A stretch of DNA of 45,478 nt from Ammonifex sp. (GTDB lineage Bacteria > Bacillota > Desulfotomaculia > Desulfotomaculales > Ammonificaceae). The notes beneath the pieces are model-generated. The model did no database searches. It was not told the DNA's origin and saw only the letters and a program-made list of their open reading frames with translations. Below are positions 24,319-45,043 of the stretch, one piece after another; within the stretch, counting starts at the first letter, position 1, and each line of letters begins with the position of its first letter. Location: the NCBI GenBank assembly GCA_003604985.1, contig QZIW01000001.1, positions 1 to 45,478 of the forward strand, read 5' to 3'. Made by a program: the position numbers and the translations under genes.

Positions 24319-24543
24319 GAGAGCAAACGGGTGAACAGCCCTAAAAAAATTAGTGACCACCACAAACTACAGCGAAGGCGAAATGACCGGTATCATTGCC
24401 ACAAAGCACGTCGGGTCTCTGAGGAGAACTCCCGGCAAACTGGTTCGGGGACAACTTGACCAAAGATACCTTGTTCTCATAACAACCAGAAAAAAGAATA
24501 AGACCACTTTGGTCGAGGAGCAGTCCATGCCGACCGAAGTCTA

Positions 24544-24580
24544 GTTTCAATCCTTACCCGGCGCTTCGACCAGGTGCTAC
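24544..24580 (-). repeat. Solitary CRISPR-repeat-like element (32/37 identical to the type I-C repeat of this locus)
   Basis: gtttcaatccttacccggcgcttcgaccaggtgctac versus gtttcaaccctcacccggcgctacggccgggtgctac: mismatches at repeat positions 8, 12, 23, 26 and 29. No second copy seen at one-spacer distance. Confidence 0.85.
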
Positions 24581-24584
24581 AATA

Positions 24585-24646
24585 CATGACCAGGAACCGT
24601 CCTTGTCCACGTTTCATGCATGACAAGGAACCTTCCCCTGTCACGT
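24585..24646. repeat. Tandem pair of imperfect palindromes (REP-like)
   Basis: catgaccaggaaccgtccttgtccacgt and catgacaaggaaccttcccctgtcacgt, each with tgac.aggaa...tcc..gtca self-complementarity. Confidence 0.6.
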
Positions 24647-25108: not shown

Positions 25109-25692
25109 GTGGTGGCCGCAGGGCATTCATGTCTTCGTTGCCTTCGCCTTCCCGAAAGAAAGATCGTTGTCTTACGCGCGTCAAGATATAACGAAGTTGA
25201 AGGAGAAATCCTGAAGGTTCTGCCCCGAAAGATCATGTTCGATCCCATCACCGAAGCGGTGGAATACACCCAGGGAGGTGATCAAGACACCGCCTTACCC
25301 ATTCTTCAGAAGTGCCTCGAACAAGACCTCCGCTGTATTGACGCTTATGCCCACCTCGGGGGCTACTACCTGGACGATTCGCGCTCAAAATGGCTAACAC
25401 GAAAGGCTTTGAAGTGCTACAGTGCAGGGGTTGCGGTGGGCGAACGAGCCCTGCCCCACGGCTTTGATGGCCTGCTTCGCTGGTCGTGGGTCAATAACCG
25501 CCCGTTTTTGCGGGCGCTCACGGCCTGAGCCTCTGCCACTGGCGTCTTGGGGATCTTACGGCGGCGCGGAAGACCTTCCGGCGCATTCTGATGCTCGACC
25601 CTTACGATGCCCTCGGGGTGCGTTTTGGGGTAAAGGACGTGGAAACCGGCCGCGATTACTTTGATTCTGTGGCAGAAAAGGAAGACCTATAA
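25109..25692 (+). pseudogene. Frameshifted TPR-like protein gene
   Basis: First frame ends ...SWVNNRPFLRALTA* at 25528. The +1 frame continues HGLSLCHWRLGDLTAARKTFRRILMLDPYDALGVRFGVKDVETGRDYFDSVAEKEDL*, a coherent continuation after loss of about one base in gcgctcacggcctg. Confidence 0.7.
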
Positions 25693-25730: not shown

Positions 25731-26168
25731 TCAATCAATAAGGAAATCACCAATCCAGCGTATCTTTTCGCAACGCCCCAGCACCTTGGCGAAAAAGGTC
25801 CTGTCGCCCACCCACAGCGGCATACCGGTCTCCTCGGCAACGGCCAAGTAAGCTGCATCATAGGCAGCAAGGTCGTAGCTTAAAGCCAACTCCGCGATTC
25901 GATGCACATAGGGCGTAACCAACTCAACTCCAATACTCAGGAGGTCGTCAAGTGTAGAGCGCAACTCTTCTTGGGGCAGATGTTGCCGCCGCACGGCTAC
26001 CCACAATCCGTTGACAATTTCGTAAATCCACAGAGTCGGAGCTAACAGCGGAAAGTTCAGGGGATCGGCCAGATACCTGTCACGTAAAACTATTGCCTGT
26101 TCAACAGCGTCCTGGTCATCCAGAGCCCATTTCAAAGCCACCGAAGCATCGATTACCGCACCGCTCAC
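25731..26168 (-). CDS. vapC: PIN-domain toxin (VapC-like)
   Basis: AVIDASVALKWALDD, YEIVNGLWVAVRR, LSYDLAAYDAAYLAVAEETGMPLWVGDRTF. Confidence 0.88.
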   Translation of the reverse strand: MSGAVIDASVALKWALDDQDAVEQAIVLRDRYLADPLNFPLLAPTLWIYEIVNGLWVAVRRQHLPQEELRSTLDDLLSIGVELVTPYVHRIAELALSYDLAAYDAAYLAVAEETGMPLWVGDRTFFAKVLGRCEKIRWIGDFLID

Positions 26169-26416
26169 CTGTAACGTCCTTCCTTAACAAGGTCCGCTGT
26201 ACTGATTTTAATGTGTCCGAGGCGTGACCGACGGGCGTCCAATCGCCTGGCCGCTGCCCAGGCAGTCCCCGAAACGTCTGACTCCTCGTGGGCCAGTTTT
26301 TCACGAATTGCCTCTTCACAAAAAGCGCTTATAGTGGTATCGCGCTTGGCCGCAGCCAGCTTTAAACGCCGCCGCAATTCGGGATCGCCGAGATAGATGC
26401 TCACTTTATAAGCCAT
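26165..26416 (-). CDS. VapB-like antitoxin
   Basis: MAYKVSIYLGDPELRRRLKLAAAKRDTTISAFCEEAIREKL is ribbon-helix-helix-like; its stop overlaps the vapC start. Confidence 0.8.
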   Translation of the reverse strand: MAYKVSIYLGDPELRRRLKLAAAKRDTTISAFCEEAIREKLAHEESDVSGTAWAAARRLDARRSRLGHIKISTADLVKEGRYR

Positions 26417-26635
26417 TTTAATCACCTCAAAAAAATATTAACCCTTTAGCGCTTTAGCGTCAAGGCGTTAATAGCACACGGTTATAGAAATGATCTCCGA
26501 TCTCTTTCAACATCACAATGTAAAAGCACCTTAACATCCGGCTTTAAGTATGCGATAACGTAAAGGAACCTTTACTAAGGCGGGGGGCGAGCTATGGCGC
26601 TACAGAATAAGTTAAATGCCCGGCGCCACATTCAC

Positions 26636-28200: not shown

Positions 28201-28225
28201 AAGTTCGGTGTCTGGCACCGAACTT
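28201..28225. repeat. REP-like palindrome, copy 1
   Basis: aagttcggtgtc-t-ggcaccgaactt: 12-bp arms with one G-T position. Confidence 0.75.
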
Positions 28226-28460
28226 GCGTCCCCATAACAACTCAAAAACGACTTGAAAACTACCCCTGTTGAATCAGCCGCAGGGCTTCTCTCGGGAGTT
28301 CCCTGAAATACTGCTTTATTTCCTGGAGAGATTTTGCAAACAACGGATTTCTCCTCCCGAGAGGTTGTAAATATTCGCCATCATCATTGCCGTCGGGCGT
28401 GAGAGCCGCCGGCTGCTTTTCGTAACAGCAATAATATCCCTGGTGGTATAATAAGTTAAT

Positions 28461-28485
28461 AAGTTTGGTGCCTGGCACCAAACTT
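28461..28485. repeat. REP-like palindrome, copy 2, abutting the array end
   Basis: aagtttggtgcc-t-ggcaccaaactt: perfect 12-bp arms around one base. Confidence 0.8.
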
Positions 28486-28489
28486 ATGC

Positions 28490-28516
28490 CCACCCGGCGC
28501 TACGGCCGGGTGCTAC
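28490..28516 (-). repeat. Degenerate leader-distal (terminal) CRISPR repeat
   Basis: ccacccggcgctacggccgggtgctac matches repeat positions 12-37; the gtttcaaccct part is replaced. Confidence 0.85.
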
Positions 28517-31500
28517 AGGTGTTAGCATGGCAATATATCACGTGACTTATAAGTTTCAACCCTCACCCGGCGCTACGGCCGGGTGCTACTTGTTCCGGCC
28601 AGAGACCTTGACGATCTTCTACAGGTTTCAACCCTCACCCGGCGCTACGGCCGGGTGCTACAGAAGCCGCAAGGGCCGACGGTTATAGACGTCGACGTTT
28701 CAACCCTCACCCGGCGCTACGGCCGGGTGCTACGCGATTCATTACGACAAGTACGGCGTGATGAATTCCGTGTTTCAACCCTCACCCGGCGCTACGGCCG
28801 GGTGCTACCTCCTCCTCTTGGTTGATCGGTATGCTACCAGGAGGTTTCAACCCTCACCCGGCGCTACGGCCGGGTGCTACTGGATAGACCTGCAGGCTGC
28901 AGGGGGTAAGCACCTTGTTTCAACCCTCACCCGGCGCTACGGCCGGGTGCTACATTTAACAATTGACCGACAAAAGTAAGACCCGCCATGTTTCAACCCT
29001 CACCCGGCGCTACGGCCGGGTGCTACGCGAATAACTCCTCCGCATCTGCATCCGGGTTGCCGGGTTTCAACCCTCACCCGGCGCTACGGCCGGGTGCTAC
29101 TCCAGTACCTAAACACAGCCGCCGGTAACTCGCCTGTTTCAACCCTCACCCGGCGCTACGGCCGGGTGCTACTTACATGCATCGTGACCATAATCAATGT
29201 CACAGTCGTTTCAACCCTCACCCGGCGCTACGGCCGGGTGCTACCACGGCGGTGAGCGCCTCTCCTGCGGTGGCGGAAAGTTTCAACCCTCACCCGGCGC
29301 TACGGCCGGGTGCTACGAGTCGTTGCCGAGGTATATGGCGAGTTCGTGCGTGTTTCAACCCTCACCCGGCGCTACGGCCGGGTGCTACGACAACGTGGCT
29401 AACCAAAACGTATTCCGATAATTGTTTCAACCCTCACCCGGCGCTACGGCCGGGTGCTACGTTATTCGTATTCTTCAAGTGTATCTATAACTGCTTGTTT
29501 CAACCCTCACCCGGCGCTACGGCCGGGTGCTACAAAAAAGGTAGGTAATTTACTATGGAAAAAATCAAAGTTTCAACCCTCACCCGGCGCTACGGCCGGG
29601 TGCTACAAATGGGTGCGGCGAATGGAAGTCAAAAGGGTTATGTTTCAACCCTCACCCGGCGCTACGGCCGGGTGCTACGTATTCGTTCAACCGCATCAAA
29701 ACCTGAGCCGCCTCAGTTTCAACCCTCACCCGGCGCTACGGCCGGGTGCTACCACCGGAACCGCGGACAATGGCGTCGTCAATCTTGTTTCAACCCTCAC
29801 CCGGCGCTACGGCCGGGTGCTACGAGGCGGGTAGGGTGAGAAGAGGGACTGACCCAAAAGTTTCAACCCTCACCCGGCGCTACGGCCGGGTGCTACCTTA
29901 AGAGAAGCAGACGAAATGCGACTTCAACAAGAAAAGTTTCAACCCTCACCCGGCGCTACGGCCGGGTGCTACGGGAGGCCCTGGCAGCCGACACGGGAGG
30001 GGTGATAAAAGGGTTTCAACCCTCACCCGGCGCTACGGCCGGGTGCTACATCTGTGGAGCAAATAACCGTGAAGCCGCGTTTCTTGTTTCAACCCTCACC
30101 CGGCGCTACGGCCGGGTGCTACTATGTTAAATTCGGCCCCTGCCAAGCCGAAAACCATGTTTCAACCCTCACCCGGCGCTACGGCCGGGTGCTACCTACA
30201 GCCTCATAAGCAATAAATGCAGTAACTATGGTTTCAACCCTCACCCGGCGCTACGGCCGGGTGCTACTTGAAGTTGATGAGTATGCCGGTAACCATCAGC
30301 TTGTTTCAACCCTCACCCGGCGCTACGGCCGGGTGCTACTGGAACTCCACCGGCTTGCCCGTGGTGTCCCGCAGGTTTCAACCCTCACCCGGCGCTACGG
30401 CCGGGTGCTACTTAATGAGTTCAGCACGTTTGCGCTGCATTTCGCGTTTCAACCCTCACCCGGCGCTACGGCCGGGTGCTACGTTAGCTGGTCGTTAATG
30501 GTTCATTAAGTTTTGTCTGGTTTCAACCCTCACCCGGCGCTACGGCCGGGTGCTACACATCAACGAGCTCAAAAGCCGCACGAATGTCATTGTTTCAACC
30601 CTCACCCGGCGCTACGGCCGGGTGCTACTTGGATAGTTGGTCTTTTTCCGGCAACGAATATTGGTTTCAACCCTCACCCGGCGCTACGGCCGGGTGCTAC
30701 CCAAATCGGCTGTCCGTCGATCCGCAGTGTGAACCGGTTTCAACCCTCACCCGGCGCTACGGCCGGGTGCTACCGGCGATGCCGAAGATAACGGCTCCTG
30801 CCATAGCGGTTTCAACCCTCACCCGGCGCTACGGCCGGGTGCTACACGCGATTACCTGCGCCTCAAGGGCTGGTTTGTTGTGTTTCAACCCTCACCCGGC
30901 GCTACGGCCGGGTGCTACCTGGTACACCGGACAGCGCCCGGCGCAGCGCTGGTAGTTTCAACCCTCACCCGGCGCTACGGCCGGGTGCTACTGGCGGCGG
31001 CGCTGGAAGATTACCAGCGGAAAGTCCGCGTTTCAACCCTCACCCGGCGCTACGGCCGGGTGCTACCTGAGCGGGTGCTTGGGGTGCCAGAATTATTTTT
31101 TTGTTTCAACCCTCACCCGGCGCTACGGCCGGGTGCTACGCGAACCGGGAAAGGTCCGCGCGCCCCGGCTTCCGGTTTCAACCCTCACCCGGCGCTACGG
31201 CCGGGTGCTACGCCTCGTTGCGTCTTTAAGAACACTTGTCGTCGTGCGTGTTTCAACCCTCACCCGGCGCTACGGCCGGGTGCTACCTCATAGTCGATGA
31301 CCACGTCATTCCCTTTTTCTGTGTTTCAACCCTCACCCGGCGCTACGGCCGGGTGCTACGACGTTGCGCCGGACCTGGTCCACGACATACGTCCCGTTTC
31401 AACCCTCACCCGGCGCTACGGCCGGGTGCTACTCCATCTTGTTGTCCAAGCTGGACACGGCGCGGATGTTTCAACCCTCACCCGGCGCTACGGCCGGGTG

Positions 31501-34500
31501 CTACGACCGTTGGCGGCGTGGCAAAGACGGTTGGCATTGAGTTTCAACCCTCACCCGGCGCTACGGCCGGGTGCTACATGGAAATCACTAGTCCGCCGAG
31601 GTTGACCGCCGCCGTTTCAACCCTCACCCGGCGCTACGGCCGGGTGCTACGTGTAAATGATTACCTCATTGAGAAGCCTGTTTTTGTTTCAACCCTCACC
31701 CGGCGCTACGGCCGGGTGCTACCCAGCGGCGGAGCCGGTTGATCTTTCATCAGAAGTGTTTCAACCCTCACCCGGCGCTACGGCCGGGTGCTACGACCGG
31801 TACAGTTTCGCGGAATGCATCGAGCGAGATGTTTCAACCCTCACCCGGCGCTACGGCCGGGTGCTACAAGAACTAACAGACTTAAAAATAGCGGAAATGA
31901 TGTTTCAACCCTCACCCGGCGCTACGGCCGGGTGCTACCACGTGCTTTCCAGACGTGACCGCAACGTAAACACTGGTTTCAACCCTCACCCGGCGCTACG
32001 GCCGGGTGCTACAGGTGTACTCCTGGTGCCGTTGCCCGGCGCACAACGAGTTTCAACCCTCACCCGGCGCTACGGCCGGGTGCTACAACGGGATACAGGG
32101 CTACTCAGTAATTTCCATGGCACGTGTTTCAACCCTCACCCGGCGCTACGGCCGGGTGCTACTTGGTGCTCCGTCTGCTTCAATAGTGTTGGAAATCCAA
32201 GTTTCAACCCTCACCCGGCGCTACGGCCGGGTGCTACCCCAGCAAGATATAAGTTGGACGGAGAATCCACCTGTTTCAACCCTCACCCGGCGCTACGGCC
32301 GGGTGCTACCAAGAGGGTGCGAATGCTTTCTTTCCCCTCTTCGTGTTTCAACCCTCACCCGGCGCTACGGCCGGGTGCTACATTCCACAAGCTGCTTTCC
32401 TTTCGGTATCCGCTTCTGTTTCAACCCTCACCCGGCGCTACGGCCGGGTGCTACCTACCGGCAACGGATCGTGTCCGGTGGTGTAATCAAGGTTTCAACC
32501 CTCACCCGGCGCTACGGCCGGGTGCTACTACTCCAGCAGCGTCTTGCCGTTCGTGCCCCAGACAGTTTCAACCCTCACCCGGCGCTACGGCCGGGTGCTA
32601 CGAACTGGGACTCGCCGAACGTTGCCATTTAGCGCTGTTTCAACCCTCACCCGGCGCTACGGCCGGGTGCTACCCCCTTTTTCTAAGCACGGCTTGCCAG
32701 TCTTCTCGTTTCAACCCTCACCCGGCGCTACGGCCGGGTGCTACGCCAGGGCGAAGAGTTTCCGGGGAGTGCAGTGCCAGTTTCAACCCTCACCCGGCGC
32801 TACGGCCGGGTGCTACGGAATAATGCTGTTCTCATTTGCTCGCTATTTCCTTGTTTCAACCCTCACCCGGCGCTACGGCCGGGTGCTACCCGCCGCCACC
32901 TTGCAGCCATCGAGCTGGTCGCGGTTGTTTCAACCCTCACCCGGCGCTACGGCCGGGTGCTACAACTGCGCCCCGGCCATCTACGCAAGCTTTATGAGTT
33001 TCAACCCTCACCCGGCGCTACGGCCGGGTGCTACCTGGCCCGTGGCATGTCGGTTCTCATGGCGTCGATGTTTCAACCCTCACCCGGCGCTACGGCCGGG
33101 TGCTACACTTTTGCGATCCCGTGTTTATACGCGTAAGCCTGTTTCAACCCTCACCCGGCGCTACGGCCGGGTGCTACTCCAGTAGCGAATCCTTGGTAAG
33201 ATCGCTGGCCGGTTTCAACCCTCACCCGGCGCTACGGCCGGGTGCTACGGCTCGAGCTGCTCACCTTTGTCGGTCGGTTCCGGCGGTTTCAACCCTCACC
33301 CGGCGCTACGGCCGGGTGCTACACCGACAAGCCGTGGGATGAGTTAACGGACGACGAGTTTCAACCCTCACCCGGCGCTACGGCCGGGTGCTACGCCCTT
33401 GTAGAGGTTGTAAACGAGATCGGCAAAAGGGTTTCAACCCTCACCCGGCGCTACGGCCGGGTGCTACAGTAGTGTGGAGACAGATACGACGGGATTTACG
33501 TGTTTCAACCCTCACCCGGCGCTACGGCCGGGTGCTACGGCCCAGATCAGTTCTCATTTCACCGAGGCGGAAGCGTTTCAACCCTCACCCGGCGCTACGG
33601 CCGGGTGCTACACCCGTTCCACCTCGCTTTGTAGCCTCTAACATCAAGTTTCAACCCTCACCCGGCGCTACGGCCGGGTGCTACTAATAAGCGCAATCTT
33701 CTTTTCGGTGTCGTAGTTGTTTCAACCCTCACCCGGCGCTACGGCCGGGTGCTACACCATTTCCGTCGGCCCCTCTACGCGCCTTAGCACGTTTCAACCC
33801 TCACCCGGCGCTACGGCCGGGTGCTACTTCTGACCACTTGATAAGGAAACCTCGACATCACCGTTTCAACCCTCACCCGGCGCTACGGCCGGGTGCTACC
33901 TGAGAAAGTTGTCCGATTAGGTTGTAAAACCGGCTGTTTCAACCCTCACCCGGCGCTACGGCCGGGTGCTACTGCTGTTTTATTGCTTCTTCATTCTGCT
34001 GCTTGCGTTTCAACCCTCACCCGGCGCTACGGCCGGGTGCTACATTACCAAACAGCGAAGCAAGCCATGTCCGAAGCAGTTTCAACCCTCACCCGGCGCT
34101 ACGGCCGGGTGCTACGCAAAAACTTTTTTGCGTTTGCTGAGAAATAGCAAGTTTCAACCCTCACCCGGCGCTACGGCCGGGTGCTACTTGAGTGATAGAG
34201 ATACTTTTATACAACAACGGGTTTGTTTCAACCCTCACCCGGCGCTACGGCCGGGTGCTACTTTTGTAGTGGTTCACGCTTTTCGCCCTCCTTCAGTTGT
34301 TTCAACCCTCACCCGGCGCTACGGCCGGGTGCTACAAGAAACTCTACGCTGGCAAGTACGAGACTGTAGAGGTTTCAACCCTCACCCGGCGCTACGGCCG
34401 GGTGCTACCATGCCTCGGAGTTGAGCGTGATGTCCGCGTCGTGTTTCAACCCTCACCCGGCGCTACGGCCGGGTGCTACATGACTGGCGAGAAGGCCGTG

Positions 34501-35203
34501 AAGCTGGCTTTAGAGTTTCAACCCTCACCCGGCGCTACGGCCGGGTGCTACTTCTTCTCCCGCCGGATAAGTTGGCCGTCCAGGTAGTTTCAACCCTCAC
34601 CCGGCGCTACGGCCGGGTGCTACGCGAGAGCATGGACGTGACCTGGAAGCAGAAACAGTTTCAACCCTCACCCGGCGCTACGGCCGGGTGCTACACATCA
34701 ACATTTGAGACTTGGCCTAATCCTTTTGGAGGTTTCAACCCTCACCCGGCGCTACGGCCGGGTGCTACCCAAATGTTTAGGCTCATTCCATAGCGCCTAC
34801 GAGGGTTTCAACCCTCACCCGGCGCTACGGCCGGGTGCTACTTTTGAGACCTTCCGCATTTTCTACGTCAAAGAAGGTTTCAACCCTCACCCGGCGCTAC
34901 GGCCGGGTGCTACTTACCCGCAGGTTGTCCGCTATCGAGGCCCAGGCGGTTTCAACCCTCACCCGGCGCTACGGCCGGGTGCTACACAAACTCCGTGGAG
35001 ATACCGAGGCCGACGGTGCGTTTCAACCCTCACCCGGCGCTACGGCCGGGTGCTACCTGATTTTGCGATTACTCCTGGCCTTACTCCTAACGGGTTTCAA
35101 CCCTCACCCGGCGCTACGGCCGGGTGCTACACCCCTCTACCGATAAAATACCCGGCCCCGTCCAAGGTTTCAACCCTCACCCGGCGCTACGGCCGGGTGC
35201 TAC
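28490..35203 (-). CRISPR. Type I-C CRISPR array, 92 intact repeats plus one degenerate terminal repeat
   Basis: 37-nt repeat (plus strand) GTTTCAACCCTCACCCGGCGCTACGGCCGGGTGCTAC; crRNA-sense is the minus strand (GTAGCACCCGGCCGTAGCGCCGGGTGAGGGTTGAAAC, 8-bp stem CACCCGGC/GCCGGGTG). First intact repeat at 28553, last at 35167. Hand-counted starts; period 71-77 nt, spacers about 34-40 nt. Confidence 0.99.
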
Positions 35204-35379: not shown

Positions 35380-35670
35380 TTAGAAAACAAGAGGCTCCTC
35401 TAAATCTATTGGCTGATTGATGCCAAAATGTTCGATATATCGCTCTTTGGGTTCTCGCAAACGGTAGAGCCTTAAACTATCTTCTTTTAAGTCGATAAAC
35501 CTTAATAGCCGAGCCCGCAATTCCTCGTACTGAACCTGGTTAACGCTACATTCGAAAACCGACTTTTGGACCCGCTGACCAAAATCCAGGCAGACCTGGG
35601 CTACTTTACGAAGTCTTTTGCGCCCTTTCGCTGTATCTGTGGAAACGTCATAGGTAACTAACACTTGCAT
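35380..35670 (-). CDS. cas2: CRISPR-associated endonuclease Cas2
   Basis: [60 protein letters not shown]. Start at internal Met (35670), after the cas1 stop. Confidence 0.97.
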
Positions 35671-35683
35671 GACGGCACTTCCT

Positions 35684-36715
35684 TTAACGATACAAAAAAG
35701 GCGGGTACGCCTCGATATCACCTCTTAAAAACCGGGCGAGTAAACGCGCTTGTATATGAGGAATCAAGCCAAACGGTATTTTACGCTCTAAAACAGGATG
35801 AGTAAGTTCTTCTTGTTTGCGTTTTTGGTATGCAGTAATGACCTGTTTACGACCACCTTCGTTTAAATAAACCGCACCTCCGGGCCGTTCTTCGAAATCC
35901 CCAACAGCTATCTGGCGGCGGTTAATCAATGTTAATACTAAGCGGTCAACAAGGATAGGGCGAAGTTCCTCCATTAAATCCAAGGCCAGCGATGCGCGAC
36001 CAGGTCTTAAAGCGTGTAAATAACCGACCTGCGGGTCAAGACCTACGCCTTCTGCAGATCCAATACAATCGTTCAAAAGCAGGGTATATAAGAAAGAAAG
36101 CAAGGCGTTAACGGGATCGCGCGGCGGACGCCGGTTCCGAGTTTCTAAACGAAAATTCTCACGGTCAGCCTTCACCATAAGACTAAAGGTTTCAAAGTAG
36201 GACCGGGCCGCGTCTCCCTCAATTCCCCTTAATCGGTCAAGATCCTCACACCGCGATAAAACCGATAACGAGTTGGCCAACTGCTTTGCGGTTCCCCCTA
36301 GTAAGGAAGCCTCATCTGGACTGTCTGTTTCCCGCGCTGCACGCATGATAACCTGCCGAGCATTTTGGATCTTACCTGCAACCATGTTACGAGCAATAGC
36401 GACTACGGTACCCGGGGTTGATAGAGCGCTATGCTGGGCACGCCGCAGTAGAACATTGCCTGAAACCGGTCCCTCTACCCGTGCACGAAATCGTCCATTG
36501 CTATCCAAGAGGACGAGTGTCCGGCCATCCTCGGCACACCGCGACATAAGCCCGGTGCTGACCAATACAGTGCCAAAACAAACTATAGCTCCCAAGTGGT
36601 GCAGCGGTACTTGTAATTGTGTTTTCCCTTCAACTTCGAGCCGTACCGTTTCATGATCAAGGCGTAAATATGCGCCCTGAGTCAATACATACAAGGTATT
36701 CAGCAAAGTTAGCAC
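35684..36715 (-). CDS. cas1: CRISPR-associated endonuclease Cas1 (type I-C)
   Basis: [108 protein letters not shown] start. Confidence 0.98.
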
Positions 36716-36775
36716 TGTTTCAGCCGTGCCCCCTTTAGGGTCAGACGTTCACAGGCACTGCAATAAGCGCCATAA

Positions 36776-37420
36776 TTAAGAATCATGAACCTTAAACAAC
36801 TGCGCCCGGAGTGCCTTAAGGCGTTTCCTTTCAGCGACAGCCCCCGGCAGACATGAATTAATCAGCGAGCAGTTGGGACAACGTTCGTCGTTAAAGGGTG
36901 GCGGGAGACGAGGTTCTTTTAACATTTTACGGACAGCATCCACTGTCTTGGCAACCTTATCTCGCAGCTCTACACTGAAGACAACCTCCCGGCGCCGACG
37001 TGAGGAGTGGTGAAAAATCGCCCCTTTGGGCACTGCTTGTCCGGTCATCTCCTCAAGACAAATCGCTTGTGCGCACAATTGGAGATCATCGTGTCGGTGT
37101 TTGCGCCGTGGCCCATGCTTGTACTCCACTGGATAAGGTGTATTACCGTAAAACTCAACAACATCAGCCTTACCGATTAGACCTAATCTCTCGGACCAGA
37201 TAGGCAGGGCACGCTCTATGCGCACCCCGCCTTCTTGATTTGCGCATGGTTCATCAACCCGCTCGTGCAACCGCCGCCCACGCATCGTGTAAACGTTTTC
37301 GTCGAAAACTTGCTCTACATGGATCAGCGCACACTGCCGCGGGCAATAGCTGTAATGCTCCAGAGCGGAAACCATAACAAGGTCCTCCGGCGCCCAGTTG
37401 CCAAGAGTTGCTTCGGACAT
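36776..37420 (-). CDS. cas4: CRISPR-associated protein Cas4
   Basis: YSYCPRQCALIHVEQVF, GKADVVEFYGNTPYPVEYKHG, CPNCSLINSC Fe-S cysteines. Confidence 0.96.
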   Translation of the reverse strand: MSEATLGNWAPEDLVMVSALEHYSYCPRQCALIHVEQVFDENVYTMRGRRLHERVDEPCANQEGGVRIERALPIWSERLGLIGKADVVEFYGNTPYPVEYKHGPRRKHRHDDLQLCAQAICLEEMTGQAVPKGAIFHHSSRRRREVVFSVELRDKVAKTVDAVRKMLKEPRLPPPFNDERCPNCSLINSCLPGAVAERKRLKALRAQLFKVHDS

Positions 37421-37450
37421 TCTACTCCCCACCTTAAGGCCGGAATGCTT

Positions 37451-38356
37451 CTACCCTACAAGGCGAGTGAGAGAAATCCCTTCCGGAAGGTCATCTTCTT
37501 TAACCGAAACCTCATAATCACTATACTTCCGCGGTGTTTCAACGCCTTCTTTTAATTTCACCGTCACGCGTTCCAACAGGGTATGAGCCGGAGCATTGCC
37601 CAGAGCGTTCTCGTGGCTGAAAACATAAAGCCCGCGGCAAGCCATCATCCCCCGGCTGGATGAACGGTCCAGGTCCCACATCTGCTGAAGGGCCTGCCAG
37701 AACAACGAAAGGTCTTCAGTTGAAAAGCCAGTATCCGCCGCAAAATGGGGATTAATAAATCCGTAGCTAATGTAAAGTCCATAGGGTACTAAGGCCTTTC
37801 GACCCATTTCTGTTGTCTTACCAGTACCCTTAGCATCGTCACCTTCAACAACCTTGGCGTCTTCGGATCGGGTAACGGCGACACGTGTAATCGAAAGGTC
37901 CAAGGGTACGATCTGATCGACTGAACGAGCAAAGGTTAACTGGACCGGTCCCCGTACCTGCCCGCAATTCACACCGGTAGTCATTACGGCACCAAAAGTA
38001 CGGATGTCGTAGAAGTTATCACACATCCATTTGCGGGCTTTTTCAACGTCGTCACGCTTCTGTTTTGAACCGGTAGAAGTCAGCCCCTCAGCTTCATAGG
38101 CCCGTTGGTGTAAGTCGTTAAGAGCAATGCCTTTGTCTTGAATATAAATCTTAAAACGGGGTTCACTGCCACGGGTGAGATCAATCCAGTTCCGTACCTT
38201 GCGTTTCAAACAGACATCACTCACCAATCCCTGCATCGTCTCAGGGTCGACACGCGGTAGGTTCCCGGCATCCGGATCGCCGTTTGGATTTCCATCGATA
38301 ACATCAAAAACCAGGACAAAGTCGTGACGGCGGTTGGGATCAATAATTATACTCAC
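37451..38356 (-). CDS. cas7c: Cas7c (Csd2/Csh2 family)
   Basis: HDFVLVFDVIDGNPNGDPDAGNLPRVDPETMQGLVSDVCLKRKVRNWI; FGAVMTTGVNCGQVRGPVQLTFARSVDQI. Confidence 0.97.
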   Translation of the reverse strand: MSIIIDPNRRHDFVLVFDVIDGNPNGDPDAGNLPRVDPETMQGLVSDVCLKRKVRNWIDLTRGSEPRFKIYIQDKGIALNDLHQRAYEAEGLTSTGSKQKRDDVEKARKWMCDNFYDIRTFGAVMTTGVNCGQVRGPVQLTFARSVDQIVPLDLSITRVAVTRSEDAKVVEGDDAKGTGKTTEMGRKALVPYGLYISYGFINPHFAADTGFSTEDLSLFWQALQQMWDLDRSSSRGMMACRGLYVFSHENALGNAPAHTLLERVTVKLKEGVETPRKYSDYEVSVKEDDLPEGISLTRLVG

Positions 38357-38373
38357 TTCTAAATCCTCCCTTT

Positions 38374-38778
38374 TTATTTAGGGTCTTTTATAGTCTTATC
38401 AAGACTCTGCTTATGAGCACGTGCAGCTGCCCGGTCCGCGGCCCGCTGGTGGTAGTATCCCAAAGCGAAAAGGCCCTGTTGTTCCAGTTTGAGTACCTTC
38501 GGAAACTCTGTGAGGTGCGCTTGAATTTCTTCTAACCGTTCCTGTAGGGCCTGGTATGTACCAGGTTTTGTCTTGCGTAGTTTGCTGAGGTGGCTTTGTG
38601 TACCGCGAAGAAGCCGACCGAAAACTGCAGCCGGCGCCGAAGAAGCCGTGCCAAAAAACCGATCTACGATTGTTGTGTTAACATCCGGCATCACCGCTCG
38701 TTGAACAGCCTCAAGTTCGGCTAACAGCCGTCCGCAAAGGTAGGCCGGATTTCTGTTTTCGGGATCCAATCTCTCCAT
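38374..38778 (-). CDS. cas11c: Candidate internally initiated Cas11c small subunit
   Basis: In-frame ATG (MERLDPENRNPAYLCGRLLAELEAVQ..., 134 aa) preceded on the minus strand by ggagggagatgatggg-ATG, a strong SD-like sequence inside cas8c. Confidence 0.7.
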   Translation of the reverse strand: MERLDPENRNPAYLCGRLLAELEAVQRAVMPDVNTTIVDRFFGTASSAPAAVFGRLLRGTQSHLSKLRKTKPGTYQALQERLEEIQAHLTEFPKVLKLEQQGLFALGYYHQRAADRAAARAHKQSLDKTIKDPK

Positions 38779-40041
38779 CCCATCATCTCCCTCCGTTTGC
38801 CGTTTTGCACATATGACCATTTTAATAAGAGCCGCCCGGGGCCGAGTAACACGTTGTTCAGCCCTGTTCCGTTTTACAGCCTGGAACAATAACCAATCGG
38901 GTAAGGGACCACCCTGAAGTGCGACGTCAAGTAAAAGCCGTGGAACGTTGGGATTCATATCCCTGTTTGGTTCGTGGTAAAGGGACGCGGATAAGGGAAA
39001 TAAAGCAATCGGGCGCCCTTCCTCGCCGCTGCTTTCAACGATGTTTTGTAATTTGAACCAACGAGCTATCTTAGTGCGCACGTCCCCTACCGTTGTTTCC
39101 AACCACTGGCGTACAACCAATCTGCCACCGCTGGCTGAAAGGGCTGTTGCGTAGAACGCATCCTTGTCAAGAGCTGTGTATTCTCTTCCGCGTTTCGCGG
39201 ACATGAGTAAGTTTTTGACCTCTTCTGGGTCGGCTGTCCTAAAGAAGGATACAGGTGAAAAAGTGCCTTTTTTTGTCCAAAAAAGGTAGACGAGAGGCCC
39301 GATACGGTAATGCGTTTCTTCTTGCTCAATAAGGGTATTAATAGCCATTGCGTACCGTTCCGCACAACTCTGACAAGTCGGGGCGATTAAAGATCTTTCC
39401 AGACCGTAGGACTCAAATGCTCCGCTATTCGCCGAAACTAAGGCTATTCCTGAAGTCTGTCCTCCCGGAACCCCCTTGATATTAACCGGATGGGGATTAG
39501 CCGGCTGGCAAAGGTCACCACATATGATGCATTCAGTCTTTGAATCTCCTTGCGGTAGATTGTATCTAAGCCAAAAGCTGCGTATTGAAGGAAGATCGGT
39601 TACTAACTGGTCGTTAACCCTAAAAGTAACCCATTGGTTGGCAGCTATCTCCTTCGGAATGTCAATACTACCATTTTTGAGATCCTTAAGAAACTTAGCT
39701 ACAACCGCAATGGATGGTTCACGGGTTGCATTCAGACATTCTTCAACAAGTGTGGTAAAAGCCCGTTGTCGTTCAGGAGAAGACCCGTCTTTATAGACAC
39801 CAAGGGTGTACTCGGCCTTATCCGCTAATAAATTTGCCTTTATTCCGGACGTTCGGGCTCCCGGATGCGGTACAACAAATTCTTTTCCCCGGTCCTTTTT
39901 CTTGCCGCTGCTCGTTGAAACAAATCCCAGCAGACGACCATCCTCGTCAAGGTCAACCAACCAGGGAACAGGGACTTTTTTGTACATTGCCGGCGGTAAG
40001 TCATCAACTCGGTCGGCATATTCGCAAAGCTTGCGTAACAA
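38374..40041 (-). CDS. cas8c: Cas8c (Csd1 family)
   Basis: PVPWLVDLDEDGRLLGF, CIICGDLCQPANPHPVNIKGVPGGQTSGIALVSANSGAFESYGLERSLIAPTCQSCAERYAMAIN. Confidence 0.96.
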   Translation of the reverse strand: MLRKLCEYADRVDDLPPAMYKKVPVPWLVDLDEDGRLLGFVSTSSGKKKDRGKEFVVPHPGARTSGIKANLLADKAEYTLGVYKDGSSPERQRAFTTLVEECLNATREPSIAVVAKFLKDLKNGSIDIPKEIAANQWVTFRVNDQLVTDLPSIRSFWLRYNLPQGDSKTECIICGDLCQPANPHPVNIKGVPGGQTSGIALVSANSGAFESYGLERSLIAPTCQSCAERYAMAINTLIEQEETHYRIGPLVYLFWTKKGTFSPVSFFRTADPEEVKNLLMSAKRGREYTALDKDAFYATALSASGGRLVVRQWLETTVGDVRTKIARWFKLQNIVESSGEEGRPIALFPLSASLYHEPNRDMNPNVPRLLLDVALQGGPLPDWLLFQAVKRNRAEQRVTRPRAALIKMVICAKRQTEGDDGMERLDPENRNPAYLCGRLLAELEAVQRAVMPDVNTTIVDRFFGTASSAPAAVFGRLLRGTQSHLSKLRKTKPGTYQALQERLEEIQAHLTEFPKVLKLEQQGLFALGYYHQRAADRAAARAHKQSLDKTIKDPK

Positions 40042-40046
40042 AGTAC

Positions 40047-40703
40047 TTATCCCTCCTTTCTTCGATAGAGGTTTGGAGGCACCCTGAGGATCCCATGCTC
40101 TAATCGGGCGCTAAAAAAAATCGGGTTGCCACGCCCGGACTCATCGGAGGTAAAATCCATGTCAAACAGCATCCGTCCCAGGTCATCCATTATTTCTACC
40201 GGTCTCTCGCTGCCATCAGGACAACCAAAGTGGGCCGAGAATTCGCGACAACCAAGGTAGGGTCTGTGGTGGCACTGCCCGCGGTTTACCCTCCGGCGGA
40301 ACATATCCCGGTATTTGGCCACCTCACCACCAGTATGCGGTTTAAGTACAATGTCAGCCTTAATTAGATAGGCTACATCGCGCAGAGCAAGGGTGTGGCG
40401 TTGCGCCCGATCCTCATCGGCATAGTACCCTCCGCCGCGAACGGCCCAGCCTTTTGCCGATGAGACGGCAGCCTTAGCATTCACTTCGTTCCGCAGGATG
40501 GAGAAATGCCTAATCTCGTTCAGTACCCAGATTTCTCTAACCTGCCAAGAGAATTCCGGTTTCCACAAAATAGCCTCCAGCACCCCGCGTGCAGCGGAAG
40601 GAGTCATTACCGGGTACGAAACCCGCTCTACCTTCATTTCCGGGCGGGTAAAGCATGCAAACGGCCCCCAAACCTTAACCTCCAGCGGTGGTCCTCCACT
40701 CAT
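40047..40703 (-). CDS. cas5c: Cas5c (Cas5d), probable pre-crRNA processing subunit
   Basis: PLEVKVWGPFACFTRPEMKVERVSYPVMTPSAARGVLEAILWKPEFSWQVREIWVLNEIRHFSILRNEV; HHRPYLGCREFSAHF. Confidence 0.97.
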   Translation of the reverse strand: MSGGPPLEVKVWGPFACFTRPEMKVERVSYPVMTPSAARGVLEAILWKPEFSWQVREIWVLNEIRHFSILRNEVNAKAAVSSAKGWAVRGGGYYADEDRAQRHTLALRDVAYLIKADIVLKPHTGGEVAKYRDMFRRRVNRGQCHHRPYLGCREFSAHFGCPDGSERPVEIMDDLGRMLFDMDFTSDESGRGNPIFFSARLEHGILRVPPNLYRRKEG

Positions 40704-40729
40704 TCATTTTCACCTCCTTCTTAAACCTG

Positions 40730-42925
40730 TTAGTAGATAAGATCATCTGGATTCCGGGCACCCTCGGTCAGCCCATATATTCGGTTATATCCTCCGAGCC
40801 ACTCGTAAAGCCCATCGCAAAGTTCAAAAATTAATCCTGCCTGGCGCAAGCGGTTAACCTCCTTAGCATAGATGCCTACCAGATACGGTTGCAGCCTACG
40901 CATCAACTCACGGGACACGCCGCCCCGGAAACAAATTTGGGCTAACAGGTCATCCACTATTACAGGCCCTTCAAATAATTCTGCCGGCGGACGCACCACC
41001 ACAGAAACTGTCGACTCCGGGATCATTCGAAACCTGGCATTCACCTCATCGAACCTTAAATGCCGCCGTAGTTCTTGAATAGCTTTTGCATCGGTTTTTA
41101 CGTCACCGTAAAGACGGTTAAAATACCGCTTGTAAAGCGCCGGATTGTCAAGGTTGACATCTTCTTCCTTTAGCAGACTTTCTGCCTCGTCCATGCCGGA
41201 GCGGTAGGCACCTCGCGGCGAACCACCATCTACAGGATTGAAGATCACGACCCGCCCAGGTATCCGTTTTCCATCTTCGTCAGTTAGGCGGCCTTCACGG
41301 TTGCACCGGCCTGCTACTTGAACGATACGGTCAAGAGGTCCTAAAGCCCTGAAAACCACCGGAAAATCCAAATCAACACCGGCTTCCACCACCTGCGTGG
41401 ACACAAGGCGGCACGGCTCTCCGGCGCGCAACCGCCGGTGCACCTCATTAATTACCCAGCGCCGGTGCGCCCCGCAAAGCGATGTAGAAAGATGTAACGC
41501 GTCGGGGTCGTCAAGCGCTTGCAGCAACCTTCGAGCGTCCTTTTTAGTGTTGACAACGGTTAGGCATTGAGGGCTTGTCCCCATCTCCGCTGCAACTCTT
41601 TCCCATGTCCATTCCTCGCCATGGACCGATATTACATAATTGACCCTTTTGAGAATAGCAAAATAACGGGAAGGTTCCAGAATAATCTCGTGCAGGTTCC
41701 GAAGTCCTTTGAGATGAAGGCTCTCTTCTAATGCCGGCTGGGTTGCGGTACACAGGATTACGGTGACACCGTAGTAATCAACCAAATCTTGAAGCACATC
41801 AAGTATAGGTTCCAAAAGTTCTACAGGAAGCGTCTGGACTTCATCGAGAATAAGGACGCTGCGCGCAATGTTGTGGAGTTTCCGGCAACGTGATGGACGA
41901 TTAGCAAAAAGGCTTTCAAAAAGCTGAACGGTGGTAGTAACGATAATCGGGGCATCCCAGTTTTCCGCAGCCAAATGGGACCATATCTCAGCATTTGAAG
42001 GCCCTTCGAAGGTTTCTATAGCCGCTAAAGCGCTATGATGCTCCAGTACAGCCTCGTCTCCAAAGATACCCCGGTAAATATCGGCCGTTTGCTCAATGAT
42101 GCTGGTATAGGGAATAGCGACTATAACTCGATCCAACTGATGTTGTAAGACGTGCTTTAAGGCAAAGGCCATTCCGGAAAGCGTCTTACCACCGCCTGTT
42201 GGAACCGTTAGACGAAAAACACCCTGGGGCTTCTCAGAAGCTTGAATACAAGCGATATAAATTTCGTGTCGCGCCTGATTTAACGGGTCGTTAGAATGTC
42301 CACTGAGCTTTGCTTGATGTGCCTTGAAGGACTCCCATAAACCCTGAAAATCGAATACCCGCTTCCGAGAACTACTCTTGTCCGGTTCAAAATGAGCTTC
42401 AGTGTCCAGAAAATCCGCGTCTACCAGGGCGGAAAAAAGCATCCGCAAAAAGAATTCGCAGCGCAAAGGATCTTGCAATCGTTCCGGTAATTCTTTTAAC
42501 AAATTGTCGGGAGTATCGGGGACCAATTTTTTAATTGCTCCCCCGGCGCAGCGAAGGGCTTCCTTTATTACAACATTGTCTTTTTTATCATGCATGCGTT
42601 GTTTCAGAGCTACAGCATTAGGCAAACCACCATGGTGGCCGGTTAACGGAAAGGCCAATAGCCCCCAAAAGTCCATCGCATAAACAGCGCCTGCGCTGGC
42701 ATGATCCGGCCCCCTTCTCCTGTAATCCGGGCTTGTTTCGCAAGCCTCAAGGTAAGCTTGAAAATCGGGATTAAATTTGCCAAGATCATGCCAAAGTCCC
42801 ATCCAGTGACCAATCTTACTAGCACCCCATTTGCCTGCAAAGTCAGCCGCGAGGCGTGCTACGCTGCGTAAGTGTTCTTCCAAGCTATGTCTTTGGCCTA
42901 AAGGGTTCCTGGAATGGGCAAACAA
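40730..42925 (-). CDS. cas3: CRISPR-associated helicase/nuclease Cas3 (HD + DExD/H)
   Basis: HD motif GLWHDLGKFNPDFQAYL, Walker A VPTGGGKTLSGM, ILDEVQTLP, VEAGVDLDFPVVFRALGPLDRIVQVAGRCNREG. TTG start preceded by ggggagg. Confidence 0.98.
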   Translation of the reverse strand: MFAHSRNPLGQRHSLEEHLRSVARLAADFAGKWGASKIGHWMGLWHDLGKFNPDFQAYLEACETSPDYRRRGPDHASAGAVYAMDFWGLLAFPLTGHHGGLPNAVALKQRMHDKKDNVVIKEALRCAGGAIKKLVPDTPDNLLKELPERLQDPLRCEFFLRMLFSALVDADFLDTEAHFEPDKSSSRKRVFDFQGLWESFKAHQAKLSGHSNDPLNQARHEIYIACIQASEKPQGVFRLTVPTGGGKTLSGMAFALKHVLQHQLDRVIVAIPYTSIIEQTADIYRGIFGDEAVLEHHSALAAIETFEGPSNAEIWSHLAAENWDAPIIVTTTVQLFESLFANRPSRCRKLHNIARSVLILDEVQTLPVELLEPILDVLQDLVDYYGVTVILCTATQPALEESLHLKGLRNLHEIILEPSRYFAILKRVNYVISVHGEEWTWERVAAEMGTSPQCLTVVNTKKDARRLLQALDDPDALHLSTSLCGAHRRWVINEVHRRLRAGEPCRLVSTQVVEAGVDLDFPVVFRALGPLDRIVQVAGRCNREGRLTDEDGKRIPGRVVIFNPVDGGSPRGAYRSGMDEAESLLKEEDVNLDNPALYKRYFNRLYGDVKTDAKAIQELRRHLRFDEVNARFRMIPESTVSVVVRPPAELFEGPVIVDDLLAQICFRGGVSRELMRRLQPYLVGIYAKEVNRLRQAGLIFELCDGLYEWLGGYNRIYGLTEGARNPDDLIY

Positions 42926-44593: not shown

Positions 44594-45043
44594 TCAATCA
44601 GCAAATGCGGGTACGACAAGCGTCTGCAGGCCGCAGTCGGGCAGCGTTTCGCGGATCAACTCATAGTGCCGGTCGTGGTGGACGAGTATACAGGAATGCG
44701 TGATGGCGAAAGCGGCGATTAAGGCATCAATCAGGGGTATGGTGCGGCCCTTCCGCCTGAGGTTGAAGGCGAGACCGGCCGTTTGCTCGTAGACCTGGTC
44801 GGTGGTTGAGAGCTGCGGCAGGGCGTCCAGTTCTCTCTTCAGCGCGTCATAGTGCGCTTTATCTCTGGAGCCGAGCAGGAGTTCAACTTTTACGAGCGGC
44901 GCCATGATTACCTTTTCCTCCGCAAGAACCTCGCGCAGCCAGGCGGCCGCTTCGGGTGAGCCGTCTTTTCGCAAAGAAAGAACCCACGTCGAAGTTTCTA
45001 CGAGAAAACAAGGTTCACCGCTCACCGCGCCACGCCTCGACAT
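44594..45043 (-). CDS. PIN-domain toxin (VapC-like) with Glu at the first catalytic position
   Basis: CFLVETSTWVLSL, IMAPLVKVELLLGSRD, RTIPLIDALIAAFAITHSCILVHHDRHYELI. Confidence 0.8.
   Translation of the reverse strand: MSRRGAVSGEPCFLVETSTWVLSLRKDGSPEAAAWLREVLAEEKVIMAPLVKVELLLGSRDKAHYDALKRELDALPQLSTTDQVYEQTAGLAFNLRRKGRTIPLIDALIAAFAITHSCILVHHDRHYELIRETLPDCGLQTLVVPAFAD

Follow-up and report, generated by a model that had tools for sequence, protein, structure and literature searches.

A solitary degenerate type I-C repeat in Ammonifex sp., probably the fossil of an older CRISPR array

A single CRISPR repeat lying outside an array can be compared with several described systems. CreA repeats are typically degenerate (PMC9458426), and the CreA guide requires a TTC PAM together with pairing at positions 1–5 and 7–11 (PMC8501985). 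CreR, according to a review, is a crRNA-like RNA that regulates cas genes (PMC12737573), and a type I-C example is among the known RNA anti-CRISPRs (Racrs), which are solitary repeat units (PMC10651486). A further term of comparison is the relict or terminal repeat of an I-C array, here of the Rfam class CRISPR-DR9 (RF01322). The element considered here was found in a 45,478-nucleotide stretch of an Ammonifex sp. contig (QZIW01000001.1), hereafter ‘the window’. It resembles the one-repeat CreA of Haloarcula hispanica in its degenerate repeat, its intact handle and, a little further downstream, a weak hairpin of terminator-like form, but no PAM-plus-seed target, upstream toxin RNA gene or promoter-like site was recognised, and it lies ~11 kb from the cas operon. 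Like CreR as the review presents it (PMC12737573), it is a degenerate repeat in a genome with a matching Cas system, whereas its guide matches neither the region upstream of cas3 nor the rest of the window. As in a Racr (PMC10651486), there is one intergenic repeat similar to the host's I-C repeat, but this one adjoins the host's own array, with no phage context or promoter-like site found. With relict repeats it has in common its 37-nt length, its orientation with the array, its position past the trailer and its divergence, as in the scattered copies of two relatives (G026 and G101, below); it differs in being alone, with no second decayed repeat at unit spacing. The element is most probably a non-functional fossil of an older 37-nt-class I-C array, severed by rearrangement. 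The features on which the comparison turns are these:

24502–24514, minus strand: weak terminator-like hairpin, GACCAAAGTGGTC then TTATTCTTTTTT (terminator scan).
24511–24543, minus strand: spacer-like 3′ flank in the crRNA sense, TAGACTTCGGTCGGCATGGACTGCTCCTC, with no target found.
24544–24580, minus strand (crRNA sense): solitary degenerate I-C repeat of 37 nt, GTAGCACCTGGTCGAAGCGCCGGGTAAGGATTGAAAC (identity to the array repeat and Rfam RF01322).
24588–24645, no strand: two REP-like palindromic units adjoining the solitary repeat on its array-facing side (sequence, inverted arms).
28201–28485, no strand: ~285-bp unit between two related REP-like palindromes at the trailer end of the array (inverted arms).
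28480–28516, minus strand: terminal array repeat with ~26 nt left, the remainder replaced by a REP-like palindrome (28/37).
28553–35203, minus strand: array of 92 identical 37-nt repeats and 91 spacers of 34–40 nt (repeat search).
35380–42925, minus strand: type I-C cas operon, cas3, cas5c, cas8c, cas7, cas4, cas1c and cas2 (NCBIfam).

Compared over its full length with the repeat of the I-C array in the window, the solitary repeat agrees at 32/37 positions; none of 100 order-1 Markov-shuffled versions of the window exceeded 26/37. CRISPR-DR9 also picks it out on the minus strand, in an alignment that spans the whole repeat (27.2 bits, E 0.006), a score under the gathering score where array copies reach 42.3 bits. 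By both measures, homology exceeds chance. The repeat has the orientation of the array and lies past its trailer end, 3.9 kb from the truncated terminal repeat at 28480 and, start to start, 4009 bases from the first full repeat (28553). The earlier note had claimed a lone repeat-like element some 4 kb off the array with no neighbouring second repeat, and both statements are borne out: the best other match in several hundred bases, including at the spacing of one repeat unit, is 18/37. One candidate for an upstream second repeat in the crRNA sense, a GTTTCA at 24611 (30 nt off), matched at 17/37 and overlapped a REP-like hairpin, and was set aside as chance level. A scan of the window for the handle motif gave no other convincing degenerate repeat with a hairpin. 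In the assembly (1.82 Mb, ~73% complete) the repeat's own sequence occurred once at up to three mismatches, and a looser pattern search recovered the array copies, the solitary repeat and no others.

The array lies downstream of the cas operon, its crRNA sense running from ~35.2 kb to 28.5 kb, and its last repeat is cut beside the REP-bracketed unit, whose palindromes have 25-nt arms of 84% complementarity and whose internal ORF had no significant Pfam match. The solitary repeat abuts other REP-like units, and stretches related to these were found in the same genome and in other genomes of the order. It is plausible that a rearrangement at the distal edge of the array, now the site of REP-like units, severed the repeat from the living array. 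Its source would most likely be the trailer end of an older array, or else an earlier array in the same orientation. Once separated, it would have accumulated point substitutions and, being presumably silent, would yield no guide or decoy RNA of consequence. As no second decayed repeat stands at unit spacing, an array origin is argued by analogy with relatives, although a relict need not have left further remnants.

In the crRNA sense, the solitary repeat differs from the array repeat by C9T, C12T, T15A, G26A and G30A. The array repeat forms a hairpin of eight pairs; C9T and C12T convert two of these to U–G pairs, and with the basal one disrupted by G26A, 7/8 are kept. The handle, GGATTGAAAC, is intact, and cleavage at the inferred Cas5c site, which the lost basal pair adjoins, would leave the same 11-nt handle as is known for Cas5d (PMC5965380). 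The earlier note had described seven of eight stem pairs with two wobbles on the crRNA-sense strand, and correctly so. As an argument for a mimic or regulator, the same observation falls away under a neutral-drift model in which the array repeat with A30 received four random substitutions with transition bias. In that model, 71% of mutants retained at least 7/8 pairs (P 0.71), 67% folded at least as stably as the solitary repeat, and 27% left the last ten bases unchanged (P 0.27). The substitutions are thus no more structure-preserving than drift, and the wobble pairs are no evidence of constraint. With 36 nt of context on each side, the mean pair probability of the hairpin was 0.32, where the array repeats averaged 0.86, a contrast that counts for little because 11/92 array repeats also fell below 0.5 and because the value for the solitary repeat ranged from about 0.05 to 0.9 across other flank lengths.

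Comparison with related genomes gave the same class of repeat in decay. Alignment of the locus in relatives had been proposed as a check, and in another genome of the genus (G001) gene order is largely kept from 14.4 kb of the window to the DUF2680 gene, where similarity stops about 0.3 kb short of the place of the solitary repeat and different sequence follows. No repeat was found in G001 beyond DUF2680, and nothing is conserved at the matching position; the I-C locus of G001 is on another contig and has a 32-nt repeat class. In G002, the genus's third genome, the contig stops at DUF2680. Across the order, 15/113 genomes had CRISPR-DR9 matches, and an exact-pattern scan of genome contigs matched only Peptococcaceae bacterium BRH_c4b (G026). 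That genome has three scattered, decayed 37-nt-class repeats, two of them exactly 72 bp apart, which adjoin a type I-MYXAN array, its I-C array being of the 32-nt class. The three relict repeats lie at L017:9492-10066 (G026:C62, LADO01000037.1), a small ORF separating the first from the second, and the last repeats of the I-MYXAN array on C62 are themselves decaying. In G101 there are three copies that have diverged from one another. Copies in relatives are thus sometimes plainly relict arrays, as in G026 and G101.

Other genomes gave more ambiguous remnants. A single listed CRISPR-DR9 match together with no Cas8c match was seen in G009, G012, G020, G035, G070 and G085. On inspection G035 and G020 had a second copy, partial or differing, and G070 and G012 had short repeat runs in which truncated copies lay at the end of a contig or near it. 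Several genomes also have one or two canonical 32-nt repeats, in some cases perhaps at the edge of a contig. In a survey of the surroundings of 18 further arrays from the order, partial copies were mostly terminal repeats or assembly gaps; more than 200 bp from an intact repeat there were, besides the solitary repeat of the window, a copy in G029 (27/37, threshold 25) and a match at the threshold in G025. The G029 copy (L114:3082-3118, G029:C7) is a degenerate repeat that stands leaderward of an I-C array of the 37-nt class, with 215 bp between it and the nearest intact repeat. Among the repeats compared, the closest to the solitary copy was that of G026 (33/37), with T12 and A30 common to both. 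A30 was commoner than G30 in this class, G30 being found also in G012, G070 and G020. As T12 and A30 are shared with G026 and A30 is the commoner state, the solitary copy may represent an older version of the repeat that split off before the repeat of the living array became G30, although this is suggestive only.

Several loci in the order are of separate interest. In G077, which has an I-C system of the same 37-nt repeat class, two structurally intact solitary repeats, L152:12430-12466 (C65) and L153:8000-8036 (C44), lie near phage-like genes (a RecT-like annealing protein and a DnaD-like replication initiation protein), the C44 copy between near-identical 12-mers, AGTAAAAGAAAG and AGCAAAAGAAAG. 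In G088:C34, ectopic repeats lie between cas3 and cas5c (L148:12658-12910), flanking an apparent second copy of the cas3 3′ end; a further repeat-like stretch falls within the open cas3 reading frame (L148:10842-10878); the repeats beside cas5c were considered as a possible CreR and rejected, the locus having no strong target. In G020:C52 (L149:7204-7295), in a genome without a Cas8c match, two repeat-like hairpins 18 nt apart lie downstream of a YpeB-like gene, sharing the handle GAGGGTTGAAAC on different, well-paired stems.

Odd placements of this kind, such as those within the cas3 ORF of G088 and in the gap separating its cas3 from cas5c, and the one between near-identical 12-mers in G077:C44, are what might be expected had off-target integration or recombination placed a repeat where no array had ever been. 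For the repeat of the window such a history is unlikely: no flanking direct repeats were apparent by eye, and its orientation and position suit the end of an array.

It is very unlikely that the solitary repeat encodes a CreA- or CreR-type RNA, that is, a minus-strand transcript processed by Cas5c and ended at the terminator-like hairpin, which would guide Cascade to a toxin or cas promoter. Besides degeneracy and an intact handle, the locus offers such a reading the succession of repeat, 29 nt and terminator-like hairpin that has been proposed for the one-repeat creA of H. hispanica (PMC8501985). Where CreA may have two diverged repeats, or one and a terminator, there is here one repeat and a weak hairpin 30–42 nt downstream, near chance level: terminator-like sites in 800 bp numbered two against 0.8 expected, the second being a plus-strand terminator after DUF2680. 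Against the reading, a sigma-70 scan gave no promoter-like site at the solitary repeat, the basal stem pair is broken, and the repeat is absent from the corresponding place in G001. Because of their small size and diversity, CreT genes escape recognition by family search, and no seed target points to a promoter under which one might lie.

A guide of this type would also need a target, and a search of the cas promoter and elsewhere with the 3′ flank had been advised. Nothing beyond chance emerged. The longest PAM-adjacent run in the window was 4, no better than the 4–9 that the array's own 91 spacers reach by chance, and no target with a TTC PAM and seed pairing was found at a nearby promoter in a scan that covered the sequence upstream of cas3 as well as the promoter side of the PIN/RHH toxin–antitoxin pair. 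The region upstream of cas3 thus gave no PAM-plus-seed match to the cas operon promoter as expected of a CreR. Allowing one mismatch, PAM and seed occurred twice in the ~73%-complete assembly, as often as for the reversed control. The controls for these scans were confined to array spacers and reversed sequence. Matches of the flank to phage and plasmid records and viral contigs were likewise at chance level. Since nowhere in the window does the flank find a seed match next to a PAM, what CreA or CreR requires fails here. A remote target may lie in sequence missing from the ~73%-complete assembly, but creT and cas promoters are expected to be local. Only the terminator-like hairpin lends a one-repeat crRNA-like RNA some slight likelihood; as evidence for a one-repeat creA it weighs little, since neither a target nor a promoter-like site was found and the pair at the inferred processing site is broken. 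That the locus makes an I-C one-repeat RNA, with a Cas5c-made handle, a ~29-nt guide and a terminator end, aimed at a target in missing sequence or with a seed laxer than that of CreA, is hardly to be expected.

The neighbours of the solitary repeat are genes for DUF2680 and DUF6429, two overlapping ORFs without Pfam match, a PIN/RHH pair and a LysM–glycosyl hydrolase gene. The two overlapping ORFs (25109-25664) are in different frames and are possibly a single frameshifted gene. The PIN/RHH toxin–antitoxin pair, at 25731-26425, lies on the stretch that separates the solitary repeat from the array; past cas3, at 44594-45043, is a VapC-family toxin gene. A small ORF at 24353-24544, which had been thought possibly to matter because it ends on the first base of the repeat, does exist as an open frame, but has no Pfam or PHROG match and shows no sign of being a gene. 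A PHROG search of seven neighbouring ORFs matched none (0/7); no phage, plasmid or viral-contig match to the solitary repeat was found, and the repeat patterns tried had no exact match in viral contigs. That the repeat is a Racr which a phage or another mobile element left behind is accordingly very improbable, even though it is a single intergenic repeat akin to the host's own-subtype repeat and a type I-C Racr is known (PMC10651486), given these negative searches, the lack of a promoter-like site, a position beside the host's own array in that array's orientation and, as regards binding by the Cas processing enzyme, a basal stem pair that is broken at the inferred cut site. The solitary repeats of G077 are better Racr or solitary-repeat-unit candidates.

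Of the two readings that the earlier note had put forward, the fossil is therefore the one supported; the mimic or regulator is set back by structure at drift level and by the lack of a target, of phage or plasmid context and of a copy in G001. Where a repeat has taken four or five substitutions, the survival of its handle and of seven of eight stem pairs is no evidence of function. A working one-repeat guide, if true, would extend crRNA-like regulation to type I-C. As it stands, the solitary repeat is a real but ordinary feature that matters little, and for a lone repeat close to an array, the fossil is the reading to prefer as long as no target, promoter or mobile context has come to light.
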